NCBI GenBank assembly: GCA_913051825.1
Contig: CAJXCR010000008.1
Coordinates: 1-42,026 of the forward strand
Direction of reading: 5' to 3'
DNA length: 42,026 nt
Source: an uncultured Halieaceae bacterium
GTDB taxonomy: Bacteria; Pseudomonadota; Gammaproteobacteria; Pseudomonadales; Halieaceae
The stretch's first letter is position 1; the number at the start of each line of letters is the position of its first letter. The notes under the pieces are model-generated. The model searched no databases and was not told where the DNA came from. It was given only the letters and a program-made list of their open reading frames with translations. A program made the position numbers and the translations under genes. Positions 18,623 to 21,121 of the stretch are shown here, one piece after another.

Positions 18623-19993
18623 ATGGATCTTACGACACTCACTGCTATCTCCCCCATTGATGGTCGCTATAGAAACAAATCTGTCGGCCTCACCAATAGT
18701 TTTAGTGAGCTTGCTCTCATAAAATATCGGCTCATTGTTGAAGTACGATGGTTTCAGCATCTCTCCAATGTAAAGGAATTAGAAGAACTTCCTTGCTTGA
18801 AGGAAAGCGATCACAATTTTCTAAATACTCTCATTGAAACTTTTTCGGAGCAGAATGGTGCTGAAGTTAAGGCTATCGAACTGGAAACAAATCACGACGT
18901 CAAGGCGGTAGAATACTATCTCAAGAAAAAGATATCAGACATTGCAACTCTCTCACCGTTTAGTGAATTCATCCATTTTGCATGCACGTCCGAAGACATT
19001 AATAACTTAGCATATGCTCTTATGTTAAAAGACGGAATCTCTCAAGTGATCGAACCAAATCTAGATAAGTTAATTGATATATTGACTAAGCTTGCGACTT
19101 CATTAGCAGAGGTTTCAATGTTATCTAGAACACATGGACAAGCGGCAAGTCCTACTACGATGGGGAAAGAAATTGCTAATACAGTAGCTAGACTTAAAAA
19201 ATCAAGTAGCGCTCTTTCCAAGGTTGAATACTTTGGAAAGATGAATGGTGCCGTAGGGAATTATAACGCTCATCTCGTCGCTTATCCTGATTTAGACTGG
19301 CAGAAGATCACAGAGGAATTTATTACGTCCCTGGGATTAAATAAAAATACTTATACAACTCAAATAGAGCCGCATGATTATATGGCAGAACTCTTTCATC
19401 TTATTAGTCGAACAAATACTATTTTAATAGACTTCTGTAGAGATATCTGGGAATACATTTCTCTTGGTTATTTTAAGCAAATTACTATTGCCGGTGAGGT
19501 AGGCTCCTCAACCATGCCGCACAAGGTAAATCCGATTGATTTCGAAAACTCAGAGGGAAATCTTGGACTTGCAAACGCTATTTTAAACTACCTCTCAGGT
19601 AAACTGCCAATTAGTCGTATGCAGCGTGACTTAACTGATAGCACTACTCTGAGGAATGTTGGAGTTGGCTTAGCATATACATTGATCGCTTTAGAATCCC
19701 TTTTTAAGGGACTAGCAAAGCTAGAAATTAATGAGACTATCCTCGACCGAGATTTAAATGAAAACTGGGAGGTTCTAGCGGAGCCGATTCAGACTGTAAT
19801 GCGAAAACATGGACTTGATGACTCATACGAACGTCTGAAGTCATTTACTAGAGGTAAATCTATTTCAAAAGAAACTCTACAAGATTTTATAAAAAGTCTT
19901 GAACTCCCGGATGAAGCAAAATCGCAATTGTTAAAATTAACTCCCAAAAACTATATTGGTAACGCAGATTTACAGGCGAACGATTTACGCTAA
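18623..19993 (+). CDS. purB: Adenylosuccinate lyase
   Basis: Acts twice in purine synthesis, releasing fumarate from SAICAR and from adenylosuccinate. 456 residues, exactly the E. coli length. The fumarate-lyase signature is GEVGSSTMPHKVNPIDFENS, with the catalytic Ser of the mobile loop. The other active-site His regions are seen in HFACTSEDINNLAYAL and RTHGQAASPTTMGKE. The start MDLTTLTAISPIDGRY is canonical. The gap to hflD is 31 bases; roxA begins 18 bases after its stop. Confidence 0.97.
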   Translation: MDLTTLTAISPIDGRYRNKSVGLTNSFSELALIKYRLIVEVRWFQHLSNVKELEELPCLKESDHNFLNTLIETFSEQNGAEVKAIELETNHDVKAVEYYLKKKISDIATLSPFSEFIHFACTSEDINNLAYALMLKDGISQVIEPNLDKLIDILTKLATSLAEVSMLSRTHGQAASPTTMGKEIANTVARLKKSSSALSKVEYFGKMNGAVGNYNAHLVAYPDLDWQKITEEFITSLGLNKNTYTTQIEPHDYMAELFHLISRTNTILIDFCRDIWEYISLGYFKQITIAGEVGSSTMPHKVNPIDFENSEGNLGLANAILNYLSGKLPISRMQRDLTDSTTLRNVGVGLAYTLIALESLFKGLAKLEINETILDRDLNENWEVLAEPIQTVMRKHGLDDSYERLKSFTRGKSISKETLQDFIKSLELPDEAKSQLLKLTPKNYIGNADLQANDLR

Positions 19994-19997
19994 GTAC

Positions 19998-20014
19998 GGG
20001 AGAACTTCTAAATT
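19998..20014 (+). promoter_or_regulatory. Shine-Dalgarno GGGAG and rare ATT start of roxA
   Basis: GGGAG at 19998-20002 is followed by a nine-base spacer, and ATT at 20012 is the first codon after an in-frame TAA. No ATG, GTG or TTG exists in this frame for the next 300 bases. ATT initiation is documented in bacteria for infC and pcnB of E. coli and usually implies low or regulated translation. Confidence 0.55.
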
Positions 20015-21121
20015 ATCACAACTGTTGAAAGTCTTGATGCAGACGAGTTTTTATCTTGTTTCTGGCAGCAAAAACCTCTGCTAATCAAAAACATCTCCAG
20101 CCGTTATATTCCATCTATTGAATCGACAAAACTGCTGTCTCTTGCAAAGAAATCGGATATAGACTCTAGAGTAATACGAAACCTAGATAATAGCTGGGGT
20201 CTATCTAGAGGGCCTTTCAGGGACCTAGACTTCATCGACACATCCGATTGGACTCTACTAATTAATAACATTGAGGCACATAACCATAAAGTTAATCAGC
20301 TTCGCGAACTGGTGAATTTCATCCCATCGTGGCGCCTGGACGACATAATGGTTAGTTATGCAACGCCTGGGGGCGGAGTCGGCCCCCATTTCGATCTTTA
20401 CGATGTTTTTCTGGTTCAAGCCAAGGGTTATCGATCCTGGAAGATTGGACAAGATTGCGATGCCGGTACGCAGTTACGAGAAAACTCAGATTTACGACTG
20501 CTTTCTAACTTCGAGACTTCCGAAGAGATTATTACCGGCCCAAAAGATGTTTTATATCTACCACCCTCAAAAGCTCATTGGGGTGTCGCACAAACCGAAA
20601 GCATCACTTATTCAATTGGATTTAGAGCACCTAGGCTGAACGACATGATTGCTTATTGGACAGATGAGAGGCTTGAAGAATTGTCAGCAGACGAGCTATA
20701 TACAGACAAATCTATGAAATCTGCTCAGCGCCCTGGAGAAATAAGAAGCGATGACTTAAGGATGGCTAAAGAACAAATTTTGGAAAAGCTTATACAATCA
20801 GATGATTCTAATCATTGGTTTGGTGACTTGATAACTCAGTCCTCGATAGATCTGGCAGAATCTGATTTGCGTCTAGCACCTGACTGGACTTGCGTGCACA
20901 TAGTAAATAATTCTAACTTGGCTTGGTATGAAGACTTTAATCAGGTCCATCTATATGCAAATGGACACCATTCCACTTATTCATCTGACATTAGGGATAT
21001 GATTGTAGTACTTTGCGATAAGAGAGAAATTAAAAGATCTCAGCTTCCGACAGTAAGCCTTGAACAATCGATTGATTGCATAGAATTTCTTATCGAGATG
21101 GGCGCAGCCTATACAGAGTAA
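20012..21121 (+). CDS. roxA: Ribosomal oxygenase RoxA (YcfD), 50S L16 arginine hydroxylase; apparent ATT start
   Basis: JmjC-type Fe(II)/2-oxoglutarate oxygenase that hydroxylates an Arg of ribosomal protein L16. From an ATT at 20012 the product is 369 residues (E. coli 373). The metal-binding His-x-Asp is H126-F-D128 in GGGVGPHFDLYDVFLVQ, matching H125/D127 of E. coli, and the later His is in PPSKAHWGVAQ. The first canonical in-frame start is a GTG at 20312, which would delete 100 conserved residues, including SLDADEFLSCFWQQKPLL and WGLSRGPF. An in-frame TAA (20009-20011) lies directly before the ATT, and a GGGAG (19998-20002) lies nine bases upstream. ATT therefore gives the right length and spacing, unless a sequence error hides an upstream start. 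The gene converges on meaB. Confidence 0.88.
   Translation: MITTVESLDADEFLSCFWQQKPLLIKNISSRYIPSIESTKLLSLAKKSDIDSRVIRNLDNSWGLSRGPFRDLDFIDTSDWTLLINNIEAHNHKVNQLRELVNFIPSWRLDDIMVSYATPGGGVGPHFDLYDVFLVQAKGYRSWKIGQDCDAGTQLRENSDLRLLSNFETSEEIITGPKDVLYLPPSKAHWGVAQTESITYSIGFRAPRLNDMIAYWTDERLEELSADELYTDKSMKSAQRPGEIRSDDLRMAKEQILEKLIQSDDSNHWFGDLITQSSIDLAESDLRLAPDWTCVHIVNNSNLAWYEDFNQVHLYANGHHSTYSSDIRDMIVVLCDKREIKRSQLPTVSLEQSIDCIEFLIEMGAAYTE

Follow-up and report, generated by a model that had tools for sequence, protein, structure and literature searches.

In the genus of this bacterium, roxA is probably translated from an AUU codon at 20012..20014 (possibly from the neighbouring AUC at 20015..20017), to give a functional ribosomal oxygenase at its full length of 369 residues. 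The enzyme would be held at a low dose, its weak start being partly compensated by a fairly strong Shine–Dalgarno sequence. The gene lies at 20012..21121 of the window (the whole stretch of 42,026 nucleotides that was analysed), on the plus strand like all features given here. Its frame is open from stop to stop over 369 codons plus stop, with a 5′ end that reads TAA-ATT-ATC-ACA-ACT-GTT. Scanning of the frame 20012-21121 revealed no ATG, GTG or TTG before codon 101, which is a GTG (20312..20314), and a listing of open reading frames with canonical starts gives 20312-21121 for the gene. No upstream in-frame start can be used, because an in-frame TAA (20009..20011) directly precedes the ATT. This TAA ends no gene; the gene directly upstream, purB (adenylosuccinate lyase, NCBIfam PRK09285.1/purB, 18623..19993), already stops at the TAA at 19991-19993. 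The sequence GGGAG (19998..20002) lies nine bases before the ATT. The original prediction, that roxA starts at ATT with 100 codons ahead of the first canonical start, a stop directly before it and GGGAG nine bases upstream, is thus correct in its anatomy.

The product matches the Pfam family JmjC_2 (PF08007) over residues 97-211, with an E value of 2.4e-32 and 111.6 bits against a cut-off of 22; searching NCBIfam at E 0.001 gave no family for it. Residues 8-285 align with residues 7-285 of the chain in 4ccl, a structure of the L16 arginine hydroxylase of E. coli, and E. coli RoxA/YcfD (4ccl, 4lit, 4nub) belongs to the same family along this stretch and has the HxD...H motif in common with it. 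In an alignment of six RoxA proteins the metal-binding residues of that motif (H126, D128 and H189) do not vary, and they are aligned with those of 4ccl. With both domain and motif present, the roxA product is, on its sequence, a RoxA/YcfD-type ribosomal oxygenase. Its presumed substrate is also in place: L16 of the source genome retains an arginine in the context VRQGKGKG, which we take to be the RoxA target arginine. Among the first 100 residues, 24 are invariant in the six family proteins, which argues that this part belongs to the RoxA protein. Reading from the ATT had been proposed to put the conserved Phe-Leu...Trp-Gln block within one residue of its E. coli position, and the 4ccl alignment bears this out: residue 1 of E. 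coli RoxA coincides with the ATC, and the ATT is one residue earlier.

The genus is represented by three genomes: the source genome (G000), G001 and G002. A scan of contigs for relatives found one, the G002 contig (public record CABYJX010000005.1, AG-333-E20). There, roxA has 65% protein identity to that of the source, the same open frame of 369 codons and the same TAA-ATT-ATC arrangement, with a 79% identical purB orthologue directly upstream. A block of 32 bases, 20007..20038, is identical in the two species and covers the stop, the ATT, the ATC and nine codons. G001, which is 70% complete, gave no match to roxA or to purB, so that conservation of the AUU-type start is conservation between two species. 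Searching 390 genomes of the order for the start block, with up to three mismatches, returned the source genome only, G002 not being among the genomes drawn.

Initiation at ATT 20012 agrees with the sequence of both species, with the conserved N-terminus and with the Shine–Dalgarno spacing, but so does initiation at the neighbouring ATC, and the predicted start is supported as one of two adjacent codons. A start at ATC 20015, the second codon, would leave the biology the same, with a rare near-cognate start, and we give it a fairly small chance. It is as conserved in G002 as the ATT and, as noted, it takes the E. coli residue 1 place exactly. It lies, however, 12 bases after the Shine–Dalgarno sequence (11 in G002), compared with nine (eight in G002) for the ATT, and is therefore farther from the usual optimum, to which the spacing of the ATT is nearer.

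Other explanations of the missing canonical start fare far worse. Translation could begin in the +1 frame, at TTG 20025, TTG 20034 or ATG 20037, and shift back by one base into the roxA frame near CAAAAAC (20069-20075). Both species have a +1 frame that crosses the start block without a stop and ends at one shared position (20082-20084), and the surroundings of CAAAAAC form a run of 21 identical bases between the species. Such a start would, however, lose F13, L14, W18 and Q19, zero-frame residues invariant in the six proteins; the Shine–Dalgarno sequence is more than 20 bases from TTG 20025, the conserved run is accounted for by the WQQKP motif, and CAAAAAC is a poor slip site for frameshifting. 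We regard this route as highly improbable. It is also very unlikely that a short form initiated at the internal GTG 20312 is the sole product, or that roxA is decaying. This codon is the first canonical start in the source and is GTG in the congener too, and the two proteins are less alike over codons 10-100; starting there, however, would remove the 24 invariant residues, no Shine–Dalgarno-like sequence precedes it, the full frame is open in both species, and the first canonical start is not shared, being codon 101 in the source and codon 41 in G002. We rejected GTG 20312 as the main start. Finally, the source assembly is fragmented (160 contigs), but loss of an ATG or of an upstream in-frame start through an assembly or sequencing error is very improbable, because the same stop-ATT-ATC recurs within the 32 identical bases of a second genome, whose RoxA has 65% identity. 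The indel that the original prediction had named as a possible artefact is very unlikely on the evidence of the congener, and the weak AUU start looks like the outcome of selection rather than of sequencing error.

We then compared roxA with other genes of the same two species. Orthologue pairs were drawn from samples of the source genome (442,026 bases) and of G002 (452,769 bases); 108 reciprocal pairs were found, of which 12 were dropped as overlapping, leaving 96. Of the 96, roxA alone lacked a canonical start in both genomes over the 20 codons that follow the aligned start. Within 10 codons, three of the 96 pairs, roxA included, had no canonical start in both genomes; in the other two, canonical starts follow after 13-17 codons, and the alignments appear to begin ahead of the gene.

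The comparison of identical runs across the start codon covered 82 pairs besides roxA, since 13 of the 96 lacked a shared start column. The 32-base run is not special by itself, being reached or exceeded in 13 of these 82, and is remarkable only when protein identity is taken into account: runs of at least 32 bases occurred in none of the 13 pairs below 70% identity, where the longest was 11, in 2/23 at 70-80%, in 2/27 at 80-90% and in 9/19 above 90%. roxA has all of its first nine codons identical between the two species, as have seven of the 82 other pairs. Within the coding part of roxA the start block also gives the longest identical run (27 bases, followed by 21, 20, 17 and 17), and synonymous codon identity in the remainder of the gene is 54%, against about 56% in the sample. 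By this comparison, the roxA start region is far better conserved than the divergence of its own gene would lead one to expect, though highly conserved genes show this too. The second of these runs lies at 20059-20079 (TTTCTGGCAGCAAAAACCTCT) and codes for FWQQKPL; in both species the +1 frame passes through it without a stop and continues up to 20084.

The conservation is not unusual upstream of the start, where 12 of 20 bases are identical and 54 of the 82 pairs do as well. Between the two species, codons 10-100 differ at 32 first, 19 second and 38 third positions, a weak lean to the third, with 50 of 91 residues agreeing; beyond codon 100 the corresponding differences are 63, 40 and 135, and 182 of 269 residues agree. 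Folding of the roxA start against 200 shuffles revealed nothing special in RNA structure (z 1.14 in the source, with 182/200 shuffles folding at least as well, and z −0.95 in the congener, with 36/200). A short hairpin over codons 1-9, predicted in both species, had no support beyond chance and was discarded.

We next looked at the start of roxA in relatives. A match to roxA is present in 119 of 140 genomes of the family, and we inspected the 5′ ends of 110 of them (G009, G015, G024, G041, G076, G081, G082, G085 and G089 were left out), taking as a canonical start any ATG, GTG or TTG that lies in frame from aligned residue −25 to +12. Such a codon is present in 108 of the 110, the two without being the source genome and G002. 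In 52 of the 108 there is no ATG in the region and the canonical codon is GTG (41) or TTG (11), counts that serve as indications, since a codon present in the region is not necessarily the codon used. The purB gene of the same family loci has ATG in 27 of 27 (a 28th locus did not reach the purB start), unlike the adjoining roxA, which often has only GTG or TTG near its start. Outside the family, 36 of 113 sampled genomes of the class have a roxA match, and all 29 of the 36 that were inspected have a canonical start (25 ATG, 4 GTG). The original prediction had named relatives with an ATG at the same place, or further upstream in frame, as evidence against an ATT start; the congener keeps the ATT, whereas all those examined outside the genus have a canonical start nearby. 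Because of these in-frame canonical starts near the same place, we read the AUU start as derived in this genus and as no general property of roxA. The lean of family roxA towards weak starts is what would be expected if the start codon kept the output of the gene low, AUU being the extreme case.

How such a start might work can be sketched from these comparisons. Initiation of roxA would have been weakened in this lineage by a change from GUG, UUG or AUG to AUU. GGGAG, five bases past the purB stop, would place the ribosome, either through fresh binding of a 30S subunit or through re-initiation once purB has been translated. The canonical anti-Shine–Dalgarno GGATCACCTCCTT is found in the source genome, and the duplex of GGGAG with the 16S 3′ end has −7.4 kcal/mol, a value equalled or exceeded in 10 of 80 other sampled genes; the roxA duplex of G002 has −5.7 kcal/mol. 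This fairly strong Shine–Dalgarno sequence would partly offset the weak codon, and the RoxA level would still be low, because AUU initiates poorly. That AUU is the codon used, that its purpose is low dosage and that the level of IF3 tunes initiation are the conjectural steps of this scheme. The accessible text of a review (PMC4295552) reports that in E. coli excess YcfD inhibits colony formation and that YcfD loss slows growth in poor medium. If the harm of an excess applies here as well, a low dose would be favoured.

A sensitivity of the roxA start to IF3 or to the initiation state, which the original prediction put forward as a regulatory link, would follow by analogy from the biology of AUU in other genes. 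The accessible part of one paper describes infC as one of only two E. coli genes that start at AUU, the basis of IF3 self-control (PMC9410913). In 18 family relatives outside the genus that we inspected (two further family matches were left out), the infC start place reads ATT-AAG in 16, ATC in one and ATT-ATC in one. In G000 and G001, the Shine–Dalgarno sequence before the usual ATT is gone and AGGAG-AATT-ATG is found four codons downstream; G002 gave no infC match. By inspection, this suggests that infC of this genus may have exchanged AUU for AUG and so lost AUU-based IF3 self-control. Such a shift would not be unique to the genus, because canonical codons near the infC start are also found in other members of the order (e.g. 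G140, G145, G147 and G151). If both readings are right, infC having moved to AUG and roxA having taken AUU, AUU control would have passed from one gene to the other, and IF3 would set the level of RoxA and no longer its own; we consider this unlikely. Altered IF3 as a cause of relaxed start choice was considered and rejected, as at positions at least 80% uniform the protein of the source genome has just conservative differences from 29 others; its C-terminal part looks ordinary, with conservative changes elsewhere.

The product of E. coli pcnB is harmful in excess. The gene itself reportedly has an AUU start as well (Binns and Masters 2002). The likeness to roxA would be that AUU limits an enzyme harmful in excess; gene and lineage are different, and the roxA case is drawn from sequence. 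In pcnB of G001 and G002, the codons from the upstream stop to the conserved VI-RDQH block include TTG and ATC but no ATG or GTG. The infC start (AUU or AUA) resembles that of roxA as a rare near-cognate codon behind a Shine–Dalgarno sequence; it too is conserved within a lineage, and infC, like roxA, is a gene connected with translation. Unlike infC, roxA has no direct feedback loop, because RoxA is not an initiation factor. In Staphylococcus aureus, cvfC1 (AUU) and ccpN (AUA) have non-canonical starts that are conserved between species, with a strong Shine–Dalgarno sequence offsetting the weak codon, and these starts were shown by ribosome profiling and reporters, according to the accessible text of that study (PMC13009471). 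As far as that text describes them, roxA resembles both genes in its conserved non-canonical start and compensating Shine–Dalgarno sequence, and differs in that its start is predicted from sequence comparison and in that its Shine–Dalgarno sequence is good, not extended. Our literature search, which covered few subscription journals, found no paper on the start codon of roxA/ycfD. Conserved AUU starts are already known (infC, pcnB, cvfC1), and roxA would be a further example as far as that search reaches. In class members outside the family, roxA has a canonical start in every case examined, and AUU is found in this genus only.

To our knowledge, very few natural AUU starts have been proven. 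Gene finders limited to ATG, GTG and TTG would shorten the roxA product by 100 residues or overlook where it begins. That the gene of a ribosome-modifying enzyme has a conserved AUU, and that roxA across the family leans to GUG and UUG, suggests that the dose of RoxA may be held down at initiation.
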